From positions 1-64,000 of the forward strand of contig CANQEH010000006.1 in the NCBI GenBank assembly GCA_947594835.1: a stretch of 64,000 nt of DNA, in the 5' to 3' direction. The notes under the pieces were generated by a model. It saw only the letters and a list, made by a program, of their open reading frames with translations, did not search any database and was not told the DNA's origin. This DNA comes from an uncultured Acetatifactor sp. GTDB lineage: Bacteria > Bacillota > Clostridia > Lachnospirales > Lachnospiraceae. Below are positions 11,720 to 19,086 of the stretch, piece by piece (the first letter of the stretch is position 1; each line of letters starts with the position of its first letter). The position numbers were made by a program, and so were the translations under genes.

Positions 11720-11752
11720 CCATTTTGCCTGTATTAAGTGAAAAATAATACG

Positions 11753-11760
11753 CATACATT
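11753..11760 (+). promoter_or_regulatory. SigmaE-type -10 element upstream of cwlD
   Basis: CATACATT fits the mother-cell sigmaE -10 consensus CATACAnT exactly and lies 30 bases before the amidase start. The -35 region at 14-17 bases upstream matches poorly, so the call rests on the -10 and on knowledge that cwlD belongs to the sigmaE regulon in Bacillus. Confidence 0.45.
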
Positions 11761-11789: not shown

Positions 11790-12044
11790 ATGAAGCGGTT
11801 GCCGAAAGGGAGGGATAAGCTGGTGGCGCTGGCGGCAGGGGCCTTGTCTGTGCTCTCTGTGCTGTATGCGGGGCGTGAAGCGGCCTACTATATGACAGGG
11901 GGGAGGGCGGATGCGGCGGACGGCGCGTTCTGTGTGGTGATTGACGCAGGGCACGGCGGCAGCAGATTGCGGAAAAACCAACGGGAGGCGTGCCGACGAG
12001 ACGGCCATGCATTACCGGCCCGGGAAAGGGGGCAGCAGGCATGA
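11790..12044 (+). CDS. cwlD: cwlD-type amidase, 5' segment, interrupted after codon 57
   Basis: Codons 1-57 encode an N-terminal membrane segment or signal (about 10-27) and the start of an Amidase_3 domain, ending at VVIDAGHGG, which holds the first zinc ligand (His55). At 11960 the homology stops and the frame continues 27 sense codons into the inserted element, ending in TGA at 12042-12044. That stop overlaps the next ATG (ATGA). The rest of the amidase is found in phase at 18544-19086. The ribosome binding site GGAGGGAAGG and the sigmaE-like -10 upstream look intact. As it stands this piece cannot fold into an active enzyme. Confidence 0.85.
   Translation: MKRLPKGRDKLVALAAGALSVLSVLYAGREAAYYMTGGRADAADGAFCVVIDAGHGGSRLRKNQREACRRDGHALPARERGQQA
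11952..11960 (+). repeat. Left attachment core (direct repeat)
   Basis: CACGGCGGC, coding His-Gly-Gly of the amidase AGHGG motif. Identical to 18535-18543. The flanking three bases differ on both sides, so 9 bp is the full identity. Confidence 0.85.
11967..11975 (+). repeat. Left-end inverted arm of the element
   Basis: TTGCGGAAA, the exact reverse complement of 18513-18521. In an excised circle the two arms would lie 28 bases apart around the core. Confidence 0.7.
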
Positions 12045-12181
12045 AAAAGCCGGAGGACAAAACGGTATCTTACACCGTGGAGAGGAAATTTCTCGACCAG
12101 CTCCCCACAGAGGAATTTGTCCGCCGCATCATAAGACATTATATTAAGGAATGGAAGAAAAACGGGGACGACGCCGGATGA
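12041..12181 (+). CDS. 46-aa protein, possible recombination directionality factor
   Basis: A short protein of 46 residues, rich in Lys, Arg and Glu, with a probable helix in its second half (VRRIIRHYIKEW). It starts at ATG 12041 behind GGAAAGGGGG (12023-12032) and overlaps the amidase frame before it and the recombinase after it by ATGA at each junction. I do not recognise the family. Its place directly before a serine recombinase and its size suggest either a directionality factor controlling excision or a small DNA-binding regulator. Both are inference. Confidence 0.6.
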   Translation: MKKPEDKTVSYTVERKFLDQLPTEEFVRRIIRHYIKEWKKNGDDAG

Positions 12182-13827
12182 CAGGGAGGGAAACCCATCG
12201 GGAGGCAGAGAGGATATACCGGACGGCTGCATATATCCGGCTGTCCAGGGAGGACGGCGACAAGGCGGAGAGTGACAGCATCGCAAACCAGAGGAAGCTG
12301 CTGGAGGATTACCTGAGAGACAGAGAGGAGTTTGTGCTGTACGATACCTATGTGGACGATGGATTTACGGGGACGCATTTCCGCAGGCCCGGGTTTTTGC
12401 GGATGATGCAGGACATAGAAGAGGGAAAGGTGGACTGTGTCCTGGTGAAAGATTTGTCCCGGTTTGGGCGGGACTATATCGAAACGGGGAAATATCTGGA
12501 GCGCTGTTTTCCGGAGCGGGGCGTCAGGTTTTTGTCTGTGGCGGACAATATCGACAGCGGGAAGGGGGACTATGATATCCTGCTGCCCTTAAAAAATATT
12601 TTTAATGAGCAGTACGCCCGGGATATTTCCCAGAAGGTCCATTCCTCCATGCGGGCCAAGCAGAGGGCGGGAGAATTTATCGGGGCGTTTGCGCCCTACG
12701 GATATCGGAAAAGCCCTGCGGACAAGAACCGGCTGGTCGTAGACGAATATGCCGCAGGAGTGGTCCGCAGAATTTTTGCAATGTACATAAATGGCGCCGG
12801 GAAAAACCGCATTGCGGCAGAATTAAACGGCGAAGGGATCGTCTGTCCCTCCGAGTACAAAAGACAGAATGGAGAGGCATACCAGAACGGCCGCCGCCTG
12901 GAACACACGTCTTATTGGACGTATTCCACCGTCCACCGCCTGCTGCAGAATGAAATGTATACGGGGAGTATGGTGCAGGGGAAAAAGACCCAGCGGATGC
13001 GGGGAAAGCAGCGGGCGGTAGAGAGAAAAAACTGGGTCGTCGTGCCGGGAACCCACGAGCCGGTCATCGACGAAGCCACCTGGGAAAAGGCGCAGGAGCT
13101 TTTGAAACGCCGGGCGCGGGAGCCGGATCTGCAGGCTGGCAGGACGGTTTTTGCAGGCTTTTTAAAGTGCGGGGACTGCGGCAGGGCCCTGGTGAAGAAA
13201 ACCTGCGCTTCTGGCAGGGGGCGGGGCCCTGCGGATTATTACTGCGGGACGTATATGCGCTCCGGCAGGCAGTACTGTACGCCGCACAAGATACCGCACC
13301 TGTTTCTGGAAGAGCTCATCGGAGAGGATCTGAAGACACTGCTGCGGGGCATGGAAGATCTTGGGGGGCTGTTCGTGGAAGCGTGGAAGGCGGAGGAAAG
13401 GGCGGAGCCTGCCAAAAGCCGGGAAAAGGAGCGGCTGCTCATGGAACTGGGAAAAAGCCGGAGACTCAGACAGGGGATTTACGAGGATTACCGGGAAGGG
13501 CTGCTCTCCAGGGAAGAATATCTGGCATACCGGCAGGAGTACAGCAGGAAGGAAGAATGCCTGAGGGAAAGGCTGGAAGGCCTGGGGGAGGAGGCGCCGC
13601 CAAAAGAGGATGCGCAGGCTCTCGCCATGTCCCGGCTGGGCCGTCTGCTGGAGCAGGGCGGGCCGCTTTGCCTGGGGAGGGACATCCTGGCGGAAATGCT
13701 GCAGCAGGTCACTGTTTATGAAGGCCGCCGGGTGGAAATCACCTACCGTTTTTCCAGCGGACAGGAGTTCCGACGTCCAGACAGAGCTTCAGATAACGTT
13801 TCCAGTAGAAAAACTTCTGGGGAATAA
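12178..13827 (+). CDS. Large serine recombinase
   Basis: From ATG 12178 the protein has 549 residues: a resolvase catalytic domain (about 12-160) with the nucleophile in RLSRED (Ser23) and the pattern VKDLSRFGRD, a recombinase domain (about 170-300, GAFAPYGYRKSP...NEMYTGSMVQGK), a zinc ribbon (about 331-385, CGDCG...YYCG) and a C-terminal coiled coil (about 400-485). This is the TnpX/phage-integrase type that performs site-specific integration and excision. I prefer 12178 to the ATG at 12151 because it forms an ATGA overlap with the preceding ORF and the family usually starts shortly before YIRLS. It should recognise the ends of the element it sits in. Confidence 0.92.
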   Translation: MTGRETHREAERIYRTAAYIRLSREDGDKAESDSIANQRKLLEDYLRDREEFVLYDTYVDDGFTGTHFRRPGFLRMMQDIEEGKVDCVLVKDLSRFGRDYIETGKYLERCFPERGVRFLSVADNIDSGKGDYDILLPLKNIFNEQYARDISQKVHSSMRAKQRAGEFIGAFAPYGYRKSPADKNRLVVDEYAAGVVRRIFAMYINGAGKNRIAAELNGEGIVCPSEYKRQNGEAYQNGRRLEHTSYWTYSTVHRLLQNEMYTGSMVQGKKTQRMRGKQRAVERKNWVVVPGTHEPVIDEATWEKAQELLKRRAREPDLQAGRTVFAGFLKCGDCGRALVKKTCASGRGRGPADYYCGTYMRSGRQYCTPHKIPHLFLEELIGEDLKTLLRGMEDLGGLFVEAWKAEERAEPAKSREKERLLMELGKSRRLRQGIYEDYREGLLSREEYLAYRQEYSRKEECLRERLEGLGEEAPPKEDAQALAMSRLGRLLEQGGPLCLGRDILAEMLQQVTVYEGRRVEITYRFSSGQEFRRPDRASDNVSSRKTSGE

Positions 13828-13921: not shown

Positions 13922-13950
13922 TTGTCAAAAAAATGACGGCGGGCTATAAT
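13922..13950 (+). promoter_or_regulatory. Sigma-A promoter of the sugar-importer operon
   Basis: TTGTCA (13922-13927), 17-base spacer, TATAAT (13945-13950): near-consensus. It drives the substrate-binding protein and permease genes independently of the recombinase. Confidence 0.8.
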
Positions 13951-13966
13951 GAGGGTGTAGCAAGTT

Positions 13967-13978
13967 GGAAACGTTTCC
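13967..13978. promoter_or_regulatory. LacI-family operator
   Basis: GGAAACGTTTCC is a perfect 12-bp palindrome with the central CG typical of LacI/GalR-family operators. It lies about 10 bases downstream of the expected transcription start, a position suited to repression by blocking initiation or elongation. The probable ligand is the LacI-family protein encoded at 17400-18452. Confidence 0.75.
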
Positions 13979-14040
13979 GAAAACTTTTGGAACGGCTTCC
14001 GGCAACATCATGTATTTATCATTTTTGGGAGGAAAACAAA

Positions 14041-15456
14041 ATGAAAAGACGTGAAATGAAGTGGCTGGCACTTGCTCTTGCAGCGGCTCTGCCCGTTGGA
14101 CTGCTGGCAGGCTGCGGCAGCAATGCTGCAGGGGACGGTCAGCAGGGAGCGGCCGCTGACAACACACAGACCGCAGACAATACCGCTGCTGGTACGGATG
14201 CTGCGGACACAAGCGGCGCAGGCACGGACGCAGCAGGGGGGGCAGGCTCCGTGTACTACTTAAACTTTAAGCCCGAGGCAGACGCAGCATGGCAGGCATT
14301 GGCCGCTACCTATACCGAGCAGACCGGCGTGCCCGTAAAGGTGGTTACCGCCGCTTCCGGTACTTACTCCGATACCCTGACCGCAGAGATGGCAAAGAGC
14401 GAAGCGCCTACCCTGTACAACATCGGCAATATGTCCGGCCTGAAGGACTGGAATGATTACGCTCTGGATTTAAGCGGCAGCGCGATTTATGACGAGCGTG
14501 TCAATGACGACTATGTGCTCTTTGACGAGACCGGCGCACCCAAGGCCCTGGGTTACTGCTATGAGTCCTTCGGCATCATCGTCAACAAGGCCCTTTTGTC
14601 CGAGGCGGGCTATTCCCTGGACGACATCAAGGATTTCGACACGCTGAAAGCTGTTGCAGACGACATCCATGCCCGCGCAGGGGAACTTGGCTTTGACGCT
14701 TTCTCCGCTCCCGGCCTGGACGGGTCTTCCAGCTGGCGTTTCTCCGGCCACCTTGCAAACCTTCCTCTGTTCTATGAGTTCAGGGACGACAATGTGACCG
14801 AGCAGCCTGCTACCATTACCGGCGCTTATCTGGATAACTTCCGCAAGATATGGGATCTCTATATCACCGATACCGCTGCAAATGCCACTAATCTGGATTC
14901 CAGCACCGGCGACGAGTCCGAGGCGCAGTTTGGCAACGGCGAGGCAGTCTTCTATCAGAACGGCGACTGGGAGTATGCAAACCTGACTTCCGCTGACAAA
15001 TTCGGCATGAACCCGGACGACCTGGCGATGATCCCCATCTACTGCGGCGTTGCAGGCGAGGAGAAGGCGGGGCTGAACTCCGGCACCGAGAACTGCTGGG
15101 CAGTAAACTCCCAGGCTTCCGCGGAGAACATTCAGGCGACCCTGGACTTCATGTACTGGGTAGTGACTTCCGACGAGGGAACCACCATGCTGGCTGAGCA
15201 GTTCAGCGGTATTCCTTTCAAGCACGCAAAGGCATCCAACAATGTGTTCGGCGCAAATGCAAGCGCATATGCTTCCGCTGGAAACTACACGCTGTCCTGG
15301 GCGTTCAACCACACCCCCAACGTAGACAGCTGGCGTGCCACCGTTGTGACGGCTCTGGCCGCTTACTCTGCCGACCCTTCCGACTCGAACTGGGATAAGG
15401 TCGTCGAGGCTTTCGTGGACGGCTGGGCTTATGAGTACAATGTAGTAAACGGCTGA
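14041..15456 (+). CDS. Sugar ABC transporter substrate-binding lipoprotein
   Basis: From ATG 14041 (GGGAGG upstream) the protein has 471 residues. A type II signal peptide ends in LLAGC with the lipidated Cys25, followed by an Ala/Thr/Asp-rich linker (about 27-70) and a family 1 extracellular solute-binding fold. Sequences such as AGLNSGTENCWAVNSQ and GIPFKHA in the C-terminal lobe are usual in oligosaccharide-binding proteins of Lachnospiraceae. The frame extends upstream past the promoter, which excludes an earlier start. It delivers substrate to the two permeases downstream. The sugar cannot be deduced, since no glycosidase is linked to it. Confidence 0.9.
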   Translation: MKRREMKWLALALAAALPVGLLAGCGSNAAGDGQQGAAADNTQTADNTAAGTDAADTSGAGTDAAGGAGSVYYLNFKPEADAAWQALAATYTEQTGVPVKVVTAASGTYSDTLTAEMAKSEAPTLYNIGNMSGLKDWNDYALDLSGSAIYDERVNDDYVLFDETGAPKALGYCYESFGIIVNKALLSEAGYSLDDIKDFDTLKAVADDIHARAGELGFDAFSAPGLDGSSSWRFSGHLANLPLFYEFRDDNVTEQPATITGAYLDNFRKIWDLYITDTAANATNLDSSTGDESEAQFGNGEAVFYQNGDWEYANLTSADKFGMNPDDLAMIPIYCGVAGEEKAGLNSGTENCWAVNSQASAENIQATLDFMYWVVTSDEGTTMLAEQFSGIPFKHAKASNNVFGANASAYASAGNYTLSWAFNHTPNVDSWRATVVTALAAYSADPSDSNWDKVVEAFVDGWAYEYNVVNG

Positions 15457-15494
15457 GCGAACCGGCCGTGTGACAAATCGTGCAGGAAGATCAG

Positions 15495-15518
15495 GAGGGC
15501 GGCCTAAGAGCCGCCCTC
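15495..15518 (+). other. Intercistronic stem-loop between binding protein and permease genes
   Basis: GAGGGCGGC and GCCGCCCTC form a 9-bp perfect stem with a 6-base loop and no T run. Such stems commonly protect the 3' end of a binding-protein message or reduce downstream permease expression. Confidence 0.6.
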
Positions 15519-15602
15519 GCTATCACAATCGGCCTGCCGCGGTCTGCCGCCGGGTTTTCGGGGATTTCCGCAGGCGGTTCTGTGAAACGGAAAGGAGTGC
15601 GC

Positions 15603-16523
15603 ATGAAGTTGAAGAAAAAGAAAACCAATGACGGGACTGCTGTCAACAGCTGGCTGATCCGACGGCCGATCAAGAGGTGGTTTCCGCTGTTTGTCTTACC
15701 TACGTTCCTCTGCTTTGTCATCGGCTTTATCTGGCCTTTTGCCCAAGGCATCTACTTGTCCTTCTGCAATTTTAACATACCGCGGGACGCCCAGTGGGTG
15801 GGGCTTTCCAACTATGCGAAGGCCTTCGGCGACGCAAGCTTCAGCCATGCTTTCTGGAATACGGCCTCCTTTGCGGTGGTGTCTATCCTTTTGATCAACC
15901 TCTGCGCGTTTGGCATCGCCTATGCGCTGACCCAGAAAATGCTGGGGGCGAACCTGTTCCGCACCGTGTTCTTTATGCCGAACCTGATCGGCGGCGTGGT
16001 GCTGGGTTACATCTGGTCGATGATCTTTGACGCAGTGCTGAAGCACTACAACACCTATCTGACCTCCAATGCCTCCTATGGCTTTTGGGGCTTGGTGATC
16101 CTGGTGGCATGGCAGCAGATCGGATATATGATGATCATCTACATCGCGGGGCTTCAGGCAGTGCCGAGCGATATGCTGGAGGCGGCAAAGATCGACGGGG
16201 CAAACAGCTGGCAGACGCTGACCAGGGTTATCATTCCCAACGTGATGTCCTCCATCACCATCTGCACCTTCCTGACCCTGACCAATTCCTTTAAAATGTT
16301 TGACCAGAACCTGGCTCTCACCGGCGGAGCGCCTTCCGTGATGATGAACGGCGCGAAGGTGAATATGACGGAGCTTCTGGCCCTGAATATTTACAGCACT
16401 TACAATATCAACCGCAACTGGCACGGCGTGGCGCAGGCCAAGGCAGTGATCTTCTTCCTGCTGGTGGCAGTGCTGGCCATCGGGCAGCTGGTGGCGACGC
16501 GGAGCAAGGAGGTGCAGCAGTAA
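15603..16523 (+). CDS. Sugar ABC transporter permease, MalF/UgpA-type
   Basis: From ATG 15603 (AAAGGAG upstream) the protein has 306 residues with about six membrane helices and the cytoplasmic EAA loop EAAKIDGANSWQT, which docks onto the ATPase. The longer upstream frame lacks an RBS and was rejected. Its stop overlaps the next start (TAATG), indicating translational coupling with the partner permease. No ATPase gene is in the element; the importer must borrow a shared MsmK/MsmX-type ATPase encoded elsewhere. Confidence 0.9.
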   Translation: MKLKKKKTNDGTAVNSWLIRRPIKRWFPLFVLPTFLCFVIGFIWPFAQGIYLSFCNFNIPRDAQWVGLSNYAKAFGDASFSHAFWNTASFAVVSILLINLCAFGIAYALTQKMLGANLFRTVFFMPNLIGGVVLGYIWSMIFDAVLKHYNTYLTSNASYGFWGLVILVAWQQIGYMMIIYIAGLQAVPSDMLEAAKIDGANSWQTLTRVIIPNVMSSITICTFLTLTNSFKMFDQNLALTGGAPSVMMNGAKVNMTELLALNIYSTYNINRNWHGVAQAKAVIFFLLVAVLAIGQLVATRSKEVQQ

Positions 16524-17371
16524 TGAAGAAGACGCAATACTCTCTCGGGAGCAGGATACTCACTGTGTTGTTCGCCCTTCTGTGCCTGGTATGGATCTTT
16601 CCTATCTTTGAAGTGCTCATCAACTCTTTTAAGGCAAACGACTATGTGAACACGGCGGCCTTTGCGCTGCCGGACAAAGAATCCTTTGTGGGCTGGGCAA
16701 ATTATGTCAAGGGTGTGACCTTCGGCAATTATCCCTTTGTAAAAGCCCTGGGATACAGCCTGGTCATCACCGTATTGTCCGTGGCCCTGATTCTCTTGTT
16801 TACATCCATGTCTGCCTGGTATATCGCACGGGTCAATTCCCTGTTTGCGAAAATTTTCTATTACCTGTGCCTGTTCTCCATGATCGTGCCTTTCCAGATG
16901 GTCATGTTCACGCTGACCTTTACTGCGGATCAGCTGAAGTTAAACACCCCGTTCACCATCCCGGTGATCTATCTGGGGTTTGGCGCAGGAATGGCCATCT
17001 TCATGTTTGTGGGCTTTATCAAGGGACTGCCTCTGGAGATCGAGGAGGCGGTGGCGATTGACGGCGGCGGGCCCATCTGCACCTTTTTCATGGTGGTGCT
17101 GCCCATGCTCAAACCCACGCTGATCTCCGTGGGCATTCTGGAGGTTATGTGGGTGTTAAACGATTACCTGCTCCCCTATCTGGTGCTGGACCGCACCAAG
17201 TATATGACCATTCCCATTCTGGTGCAGTACTTGAAGGGCAGCTACGGCAGCGTGGATCTGGGCGCGACGATGGCAGTCATCATGCTGAGCATCGTGCCAG
17301 TCATCATTTTGTACATTTTCTGTCAAAAACATATTATAAAAGGTGTTGCAGCCGGTGCTGTAAAGGGATAA
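16523..17371 (+). CDS. Sugar ABC transporter permease, MalG/UgpE-type
   Basis: This 282-residue inner-membrane protein has six predicted helices and the EAA loop EEAVAIDGGGPICTF. It pairs with the preceding permease to form the translocation channel. Its ATG overlaps the previous stop by one base. The next gene, a LacI-family regulator, begins 28 bases downstream and is probably on the same transcript. Confidence 0.9.
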   Translation: MKKTQYSLGSRILTVLFALLCLVWIFPIFEVLINSFKANDYVNTAAFALPDKESFVGWANYVKGVTFGNYPFVKALGYSLVITVLSVALILLFTSMSAWYIARVNSLFAKIFYYLCLFSMIVPFQMVMFTLTFTADQLKLNTPFTIPVIYLGFGAGMAIFMFVGFIKGLPLEIEEAVAIDGGGPICTFFMVVLPMLKPTLISVGILEVMWVLNDYLLPYLVLDRTKYMTIPILVQYLKGSYGSVDLGATMAVIMLSIVPVIILYIFCQKHIIKGVAAGAVKG

Positions 17372-17399
17372 AATAGACGGAGAAAAGGAGGTGTGGCCG

Positions 17400-18452
17400 G
17401 TGACCATCAAAGATGTCGCGCGGCGCTCCGGCTATGCGGTGGGCACGGTATCCCGGGTGCTGAACGGGCATCCGGACGTCAGCGAGGAGGCGCGTGCCCG
17501 GATCCTGGCGGTGGTAGAAGAACTGGGGTTTAAGCCGAACAGCAACGCCCGCAACTTAAAGCAGCGGGAGGGAAGCGGCTTCTGCATCATCGTAAAAGGC
17601 GCCCGCAACCTTTTATTTGCAGACATCGTGGAAAAAATGCAGAACCATATCAAGGACGCGGGGCGGTCTGCCACGGTGGTCTATGTGGATGAGGATGACG
17701 ACGAGGTAGAGACGGCGCTCCAGGCCTACCGGGAGCAGAAGCCCCTGGGCATTTTGTTTCTGGGCGGCAACCGGGACAATTTCCTCCGCAGCTTTGGGCG
17801 TCTCACCTGTCCCTGCGTACTGGTGACCACCCGGGCGGATACTCTGGGGTTTGCGAATCTCTCCAGCGTCTCCACGGACGATGTGGAGGGCGCGGCCCAG
17901 GCCATGGGGCTTTTGCTGGATGCGGGGCACCGCAGGGTGGGCATCATCGGAGGCGACAGCTGTAAGGTCAGCCCTGTTTTGAACTGCAATACCAGCCAGC
18001 TGCGTCTGATCGGCTGCCAGCAGGCCAGCATCCAGAGGGGCGTGCCTTTCGACCCGGAGCAGCAGTCCATCATCTCCCGTTATTCCATGGAGGGCGGCTA
18101 CGAGGCGGCGAAGATACTGTTAGGCCGCTGCCCGGACATAACGGCGATCCTGGCCATGTCCGACGTGATGGCAATCGGCGCGTTGCGGGCCATCCGGGAC
18201 AGCGGGCTCAGGGTGCCGGAGGATATTTCGCTGGTGGGCTACGACGGCATCGAGCAGGTGGACTACTGCGTGCCAAGGCTCTCCACGGTGCGGCAGAATG
18301 TGGAACAGCTGGCCCGGCGGGGGGTGGATATTTTGATCCAGCAGACCGACGGCGGGCAGACGGTTCACGAGATCATACCGTTCCAGCTGATCAAGGGAGA
18401 AAGCGTGCGGGACATAAGGGAACTGGAGGACAGGAAACGGGCCTACGGTTAA
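17400..18452 (+). CDS. LacI-family transcriptional regulator
   Basis: From GTG 17400 the protein has 350 residues. An N-terminal helix-turn-helix and hinge helix (TIKDVARRSGYAVGTVSRVL, residues 2-21) precede a periplasmic-binding-protein-like sensor domain (about 60-340). GTG 17400 is preferred to GTG 17391 because AGGAGG (17386-17391) is eight bases before it and MTIKDVA is the usual family start. It probably represses the importer operon through the palindrome at 13967-13978, with the transported sugar or a derivative as inducer. It is the last gene of the element. Confidence 0.9.
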   Translation: MTIKDVARRSGYAVGTVSRVLNGHPDVSEEARARILAVVEELGFKPNSNARNLKQREGSGFCIIVKGARNLLFADIVEKMQNHIKDAGRSATVVYVDEDDDEVETALQAYREQKPLGILFLGGNRDNFLRSFGRLTCPCVLVTTRADTLGFANLSSVSTDDVEGAAQAMGLLLDAGHRRVGIIGGDSCKVSPVLNCNTSQLRLIGCQQASIQRGVPFDPEQQSIISRYSMEGGYEAAKILLGRCPDITAILAMSDVMAIGALRAIRDSGLRVPEDISLVGYDGIEQVDYCVPRLSTVRQNVEQLARRGVDILIQQTDGGQTVHEIIPFQLIKGESVRDIRELEDRKRAYG

Positions 18453-18457
18453 TCGGG

Positions 18458-18493
18458 AAAAGACAGGCGTCTGGAAACGGACGCCTGTCTTTT
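18458..18493 (+). terminator. Rho-independent terminator at the end of the element cargo
   Basis: AAAAGACAGGCGTC pairs with GACGCCTGTCTTTT (14-bp stem, 8-base loop) with the T run in the stem end. It isolates the importer operon from the 3' amidase segment 50 bases on. Confidence 0.85.
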
Positions 18494-18512: not shown

Positions 18513-18521
18513 TTTCCGCAA
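18513..18521 (-). repeat. Right-end inverted arm of the element
   Basis: TTTCCGCAA, exact reverse complement of 11967-11975, 13 bases inside the right core repeat. Confidence 0.7.
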
Positions 18522-18534
18522 CTTACCGCCGCCC

Positions 18535-18543
18535 CACGGCGGC
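18535..18543 (+). repeat. Right attachment core (direct repeat)
   Basis: CACGGCGGC, identical to 11952-11960. It is preceded by element sequence (CCGCC) and followed by the amidase codons GAA GAC CCC. Confidence 0.85.
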
Positions 18544-19086
18544 GAAGACCCCGGGAAGGTAGGGATCAACGGTTCCTATGAAAAGGACGTCAACCTGCAG
18601 ATCGCCCGGCGTGTGAAGCAGTATCTGGAGGCCGCCGGCGTGGAGGTGGTCATGACCCGGGAGACGGATGAAGGTTTGAACGATGCGGATGCCTCCAACA
18701 AAAAGGTGCAGGATATGAAGCGGCGGATCGCGCTGATCGACGGGGCGGCGCCCCAGGCCACGGTCAGCATCCACCAGAACAGCTACCCGGAAGAATATGT
18801 GCACGGGGCCCAGGTTTTTTACTACACGGGCAGTGTCCAGGGGCAGAAGCTGGCAGGCCGGATCCAGGATCAGCTGGTGGAAAAGACGGATCCGGAAAAC
18901 CACCGGGAGATCAAGGCAAACGACAGCTATTATCTCTTAAAAAAGACCGGGATCCCCATTGTCATCGTGGAATGCGGCTTTTTGTCCAATCACGCCGAGG
19001 CGGAGAAGCTCTGCAGCCAGGAGTATCAGGACAGGGTGGCCTGGGCCATCCATCTGGGAATATTGCAATACTTATATGACGGTTAA
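18544..19086 (+). CDS. cwlD: cwlD-type amidase, 3' segment
   Basis: This segment encodes the remaining 180 residues of an Amidase_3 zinc enzyme. Numbered in the rejoined protein it holds Glu70 (GSYEKDVNL), His134 (VSIHQNSY) and the catalytic VECGFLSN box near residue 195, so with His55 from the 5' segment all ligands are present. CwlD cleaves L-alanyl side chains from muramic acid, the first step of muramic-delta-lactam formation in spore cortex. The rejoined length, 237 codons including the stop, fits the family. Within the interrupted locus this part has no promoter or proper start; the first in-frame starts (such as GTG 18613) would omit two zinc ligands. Confidence 0.85.
   Translation, partial: EDPGKVGINGSYEKDVNLQIARRVKQYLEAAGVEVVMTRETDEGLNDADASNKKVQDMKRRIALIDGAAPQATVSIHQNSYPEEYVHGAQVFYYTGSVQGQKLAGRIQDQLVEKTDPENHREIKANDSYYLLKKTGIPIVIVECGFLSNHAEAEKLCSQEYQDRVAWAIHLGILQYLYDG

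Follow-up and report, generated by a model that had tools for sequence, protein, structure and literature searches.

A recombinase element splitting the sporulation gene cwlD in an uncultured Acetatifactor, with an excision operon that may be read from the promoter of the broken gene

The window, by which I mean the whole stretch of 64,000 nucleotides analyzed here, comes from the draft genome (47 contigs) of an uncultured Acetatifactor sp. and contains an element of 6,583 bp (6.58 kb) with a gene for a large serine recombinase (LSR). The element interrupts a gene that, judging from its sequence, is cwlD, encoding the sporulation amidase CwlD, and breaks it in frame within the motif DAGHGG. 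All features of the window described here lie on the forward strand. The 5' half of the gene (11790–11960), recognized from the sequence and its reading frame, extends from the N-terminal anchor to DAGHGG. The 3' half was found within the window by a search of the whole genome for the missing part of the amidase (PF01520 match at 18529–19065), and it is because this second half sits at 18535–19086 (best model TIGR02883, spore_cwlD, 188 bits) that the element can be said to split cwlD. Joined at a common 9-bp core, the halves score 208.5 bits against TIGR02883 (positions 3–189), similar to the intact copies of the genus; the cut-off set by NCBI for this model, 221.55 bits, is reached in only 2 of 138 genomes of the same genus. 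The genome search found no better match to CwlD elsewhere in the source genome.

The core, CACGGCGGC, occurs as a direct repeat at the left end of the element (attL; 11952–11960) and at the right end (attR; 18535–18543). The element is bounded by 21-bp inverted half-sites, GGCGGCAGCAGATTGCGGAAA on the left (11955–11975) and TTTCCGCAACTTACCGCCGCC on the right (18513–18533), with 81% identity between them. The left arm is seen again in relatives, where it is read as '..LRK' in the frame of the amidase.

At the left end the amidase frame (11790–12044) reads ...VVIDAGHGG up to 11960, then continues for 27 sense codons into the element (11961–12044) and stops at a TGA (12042–12044) that overlaps, in an ATGA at 12041–12044, the start of a 46-codon ORF (12041–12181). 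The TGA of that ORF (12179–12181) overlaps in the same way the ATG of the recombinase gene (12178–12180), giving a second ATGA at 12178–12181. An earlier, sequence-only reading of this DNA had drawn attention to both overlaps, and both are exact. The second exceeds what chance would give, NTGA being found at the junction of ORF and recombinase in 30 of 69 non-redundant relatives; in many of the others a gap of about 70–120 bp separates the two. The recombinase (549 aa; 12178–13827) starts 217 bp from the core and carries, in order, the Resolvase, Recombinase, and zinc-ribbon domains (PF00239, PF07508, PF13408), all over cut-off. A start at 12151 was also considered and is less likely, since the recombinases of relatives start at the NTGA overlap.

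Behind the recombinase lies a cargo operon (13922–18493) for a sugar-type ABC transporter and its LacI regulator, which has a strong sigma-A-like promoter of its own (TTGTCA-17-TATAAT, 13922–13950; 11 of 12). It comprises an extracellular solute-binding protein (14041–15456; PF13416), two ABC permeases (15600–16523, the start approximate, and 16523–17371; both PF00528), and a LacI-family regulator (17391–18452; PF00356, PF13377), and is closed by a terminator-like hairpin (18458–18493) made of a 14-bp perfect inverted repeat with an 8-nt loop. Excision would remove this operon from mother cells only. Three other possibilities were considered and set aside: a regulatory RNA at the left end or anywhere else in the window (no Rfam match; fold z-score −0.47), integration associated with a tRNA (the window contains none), and a plasmid origin (just two weak matches, to recombinase genes).

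Almost every close relative has a homologue of the 46-aa ORF immediately before its recombinase, with the shared pattern YTVERxFLxxISxEELxxRIIxSH. The ORF has no match in Pfam or NCBIfam, and an AlphaFold2 model gives it two helices (pLDDT 78). That a small conserved protein adjoins an LSR suggests that it is a candidate recombination directionality factor. Its identification as TnpW (PF14202) was rejected, there being no Pfam match up to an E-value of 10 and a probability of 1.9% in an hhalign profile comparison. ORFs of the TnpW family do stand just before certain other serine recombinases in one genome of the same genus.

Upstream of cwlD lies a probable promoter of the sigma-E type (11731–11760), consisting of a −35-like GTATTA (11731–11736) and a −10 sequence, CATACATT (11753–11760). 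Together with the identification of the gene as CwlD, this agrees with the sequence-only reading, which had supposed the interrupted amidase to be a sporulation gene. CATAYANT is present upstream of 21 of 38 copies of cwlD, mostly from the same genus and some from related ones, against 1.2 expected.

The element's relatives commonly carry a promoter-like sequence inside the element. A motif, GCATATT-GGAYAAGC-CnTnnnn-CATATGTTG, precedes the 46-aa ORF with a score above 12 in 57 of 105 family members. Those members score from about 12 to 45, as against −15.7 for the window copy, in which 80 bp separate the core from the ORF. On the strength of its sequence, this motif is a conserved sigma-E-like promoter, the one that elements of the family usually possess for themselves, and the window copy has lost it. 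Within it, GGACAAG resembles the SpoIIID box. SpoIIID sites that overlap the polymerase site usually repress in B. subtilis (PMC517825), and SpoIIID control of the family motif may therefore have either sign. The spacing ATA-N17-CATA fits a sigma-E promoter; the spoIIID promoter of C. difficile reads ATA-N16-CATATATA (PMC3789822).

About 100 relatives were compared in all, the motif being scored on 105 members and the junctions counted on the 69 that are non-redundant. A close relative of the recombinase is present in 12 of the 138 genomes of the genus, and cwlD is cut right after DAGHGG in about 13, a figure that includes one genome (G072) with a different recombinase nearby and three (G005, G012, G042) in which the locus is ended by a contig end or has no recombinase. 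The G072 locus (L204; G072:C163:60299-63420) combines a 5' truncation of cwlD with a distant recombinase (about 35% identity) some 1 kb off, possibly a second lineage at cwlD. A wider scan yielded 80 named recombinase loci, mostly from Lachnospiraceae. About 40 of them have the 3' part of an Amidase_3 gene nearby, often beginning 40–200 bp past the recombinase stop, a count that may be low, as two of the five query halves (G022, G099) were out of frame; some of the matches, with identities near 30%, are not CwlD but other amidases. The Amidase_3 gene next to four of the loci (L088, L107, L111, L113) is of another kind, short at the N-terminus (M..IMLDAGHGG) and, by eye, similar to CwlC/CwlH. 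The cwlD element L037, in G022, measures only about 2.7 kb; besides the small ORF and the recombinase it has a single gene, of unknown function, which is also found behind the recombinase in G037 and G027.

The arrangement seen in the window recurs among these loci. In L105, L107, and L111 as well, the truncated amidase frame ends in an ATGA at the start of the small ORF, with only 26 bp available in L105 for an internal promoter. In L091 the amidase frame stays open across a sequence weakly homologous to the 46-aa ORF. In L117 (9917–11509, from a Robinsoniella sp. MAG) the start of the amidase and the recombinase form a single ORF, both intergenic DNA and the small ORF being absent, and the 3' part of the amidase directly follows the recombinase stop. 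Placed on a recombinase tree, a quick one with several long branches, the four ATGA-coupled cases cannot be explained with fewer than three separate changes, each of them imposed by well-supported branches; the fusions in L091 and L117 require two more. L118 was rejected as a case of read-through, since it has the full motif of an own promoter and since high G+C content probably accounts for the open frame of its amidase.

The probability that an ATGA between amidase and ORF arises by chance is 0.31 in L105, 0.05 in L111, and 0.04 in L107, and about 0.19 in the window (shuffling its 80 bp), all rough values in that each comes from shuffling one single stretch. The first ATGA of the window is thus not significant by itself and was dropped as evidence in its own right. 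Given these values, the weight of the case is carried by the recurrence and by the loss of the promoter, and by no single overlap. With the window copy having lost its own promoter, the ATGA having recurred at least three times independently, and a fusion of amidase and recombinase in existence, it is well supported from these comparisons that wiring to the host promoter is a recurrent variant. It is evidently not the rule, as most relatives appear to use the internal sigma-E-like promoter. Comparing the left ends of other insertions, as had been proposed, shows that the operon lies behind the amidase frame, overlaps it, or is fused to it in L105, L107/L111, L091, and L117; most others do not seem to depend on the host promoter.

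The interpretation I favor, and think probable though well short of secure, is that this is an LSR element of the general kind of skin, gin, and vfbin in which transcription of cwlD drives the excision operon and with it the gene's own repair. In the mother cell, RNA polymerase with sigma-E would start at the cwlD promoter and read across attL into the excision operon, 46-aa ORF first and recombinase second. The small protein would serve as the directionality factor, the recombinase coming in part from a weak sigma-A promoter, and the two proteins would join attL with attR, deleting the element and restoring cwlD. The same event would part the operon from the cwlD promoter, and as a result its expression would stop.

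The sequence-only reading had found no separate sigma-A promoter before the recombinase. There is a candidate, TTGTCC-17-TATATT (12117–12145), the −10 of which ends 32 nt before the recombinase ATG, with a P of 0.007 by shuffling, a value that is somewhat flattering because the distance window of 24–39 nt was picked after a first look at the data. At that distance from the recombinase start, 27 of 69 relatives also have a sigma-A-like promoter, where 1.6 would be expected. The recombinase might then be constitutive, the overlaps with the amidase incidental, and excision timed otherwise, for example by a factor outside the operon. The chance level of the first ATGA is in keeping with this, and constitutive recombinases are known from the skin element of C. 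difficile and from SPbeta (PMC5025042, PMC5595907). I nonetheless consider it unlikely, roughly the order of a one-in-several prospect, for it leaves three things unexplained: the almost constant position of the 46-aa ORF just before the recombinase, the sigma-E-like promoter that relatives keep in front of that ORF, and the recurrence of the ATGA arrangement in unrelated lineages.

What the candidate promoter does alter is the reach of host drive: if it functions, dependence on cwlD transcription would be chiefly that of the 46-aa ORF. The earlier proposal that the amidase promoter drives the recombinase is supported in part, by the missing internal promoter and by the recurrence of the wiring, and has to be narrowed in this respect. 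Translational coupling to the amidase fares similarly; the overlaps are real, and coupling is apparently not necessary, given that the 46-aa ORF has a Shine-Dalgarno sequence of its own (a 5-of-6 match) and that the first ATGA could be fortuitous. Both of these points count against drive by the host, as do the sigma-A candidate, the independence of most relatives, the weak −35 of the cwlD promoter (ATT instead of ATA), and the state of a second sporulation gene.

That gene is spoIIID, split in the source genome by a different element of 3.7 kb outside the window (G000:C6:106536-110477; L198:8537-12478), and for this reason the strain may have lost sporulation. One could accordingly suppose a plain mobile island that has inactivated cwlD permanently in a lineage losing sporulation, with left-end overlaps of no regulatory meaning; its cargo, a sugar transporter, has no sporulation function. 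This seems to me improbable, and more so than a constitutive recombinase. Both halves of cwlD, the core, the half-sites, and the recombinase are all intact in the window copy, and Spo0A and SpoIVA are present in the source genome. Moreover, in four related species with an element at the same codon, dN/dS is 0.025–0.15 for the 3' half of the split cwlD, where dS reaches 1.8, and 0.07–0.34 for the 5' half, which offers few sites. Such strong purifying selection on split genes in the relatives favors excision over decay. In three of the four species recombinase and host gene are much alike in synonymous divergence, consistent with vertical inheritance since the split. Least probable is an internal promoter without conserved motif, in 11961–12040 for instance, that the scans failed to recognize: the operon does have its own promoter in most relatives, but these 80 bp score far below the family motif and gave no sigma-70-type match in the promoter scan, and L105 and L117 have little or no room for one.

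The genes of the spoIIID element, named by eye from their translations, are one for a serine recombinase of 504 aa, two that look like a nucleotidyltransferase/HEPN-like pair, and a NERD-like one. About 21 of the 138 genomes of the genus have SpoIIID in two parts (profile positions about 1–42 and 34–81) and no full-length copy. A literature search that covered few subscription papers found no published report of a split cwlD or spoIIID.

Returning to cwlD transcription as the trigger, a broader and more tentative account, to which I give somewhat less than even chances, is that the element gave up a developmental promoter of its own and has its directionality factor and recombinase made from the mother-cell promoter of cwlD; transcribing the broken gene would then set off the repair, and the repair would shut off the operon. 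This wiring would have evolved several times, up to the fusion of amidase and recombinase. With spoIIID also split in the source genome, a promoter that needs SpoIIID would have to await a first excision; the cwlD element may thereby have shed that dependence. If so, repair would be tied to need, and such elements would tend toward vertical inheritance only, a free circle being left without the promoter. The list of genes split by such elements is extended by cwlD and, within the genus, by spoIIID, and natural variants become available for studying how the expression of a directionality factor sets the timing of excision.

Among known systems, Tn4451 and Tn5397, with TnpX and the small TnpW, resemble the cwlD element in that TnpX (2mhc) is the solved chain nearest to its recombinase. 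They differ in that homology of TnpW to the 46-aa family is unsupported, and TnpX elements are not known to be tied to sporulation genes. In the skin element of B. subtilis (sigK), a serine recombinase likewise restores a mother-cell gene, as predicted for cwlD, but there the recombinase gene, spoIVCA, is read from a promoter of its own that sigma-E and SpoIIID control (PMC517825), and no directionality factor had been identified (PMC5025042). In Bacillus cereus, gerE is split by gin, an element of 28.6 kb that has three serine recombinases, with GirC as recombinase and GirX as directionality factor; it too is a non-phage gene-intervening element with a 9-bp common core within a sporulation gene. 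The gene is a different one, and the available part of its description does not place the gin recombinase behind the interrupted gene (PMC5595907). In the skin element of C. difficile, the recombinase CD1231 depends on sigma-A and the directionality factor CD1234 is under sigma-E/SpoIIID (PMC5025042). There, as here, an LSR element splits a mother-cell sporulation gene (sigK), the recombinase has a sigma-A promoter (a candidate in the present case), and sporulation control acts, or in the present case would act, through a small partner protein. The cwlD element differs in the gene that it splits, in having no phage genes, and in the place of that control, which for CD1234 lies inside the element, whereas the small ORF here stands directly behind the promoter of the interrupted gene. 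Well-studied gene-intervening elements time their excision by promoters of their own; the loci compared here suggest that in this family the control genes have repeatedly come to be placed behind the promoter of the interrupted gene.
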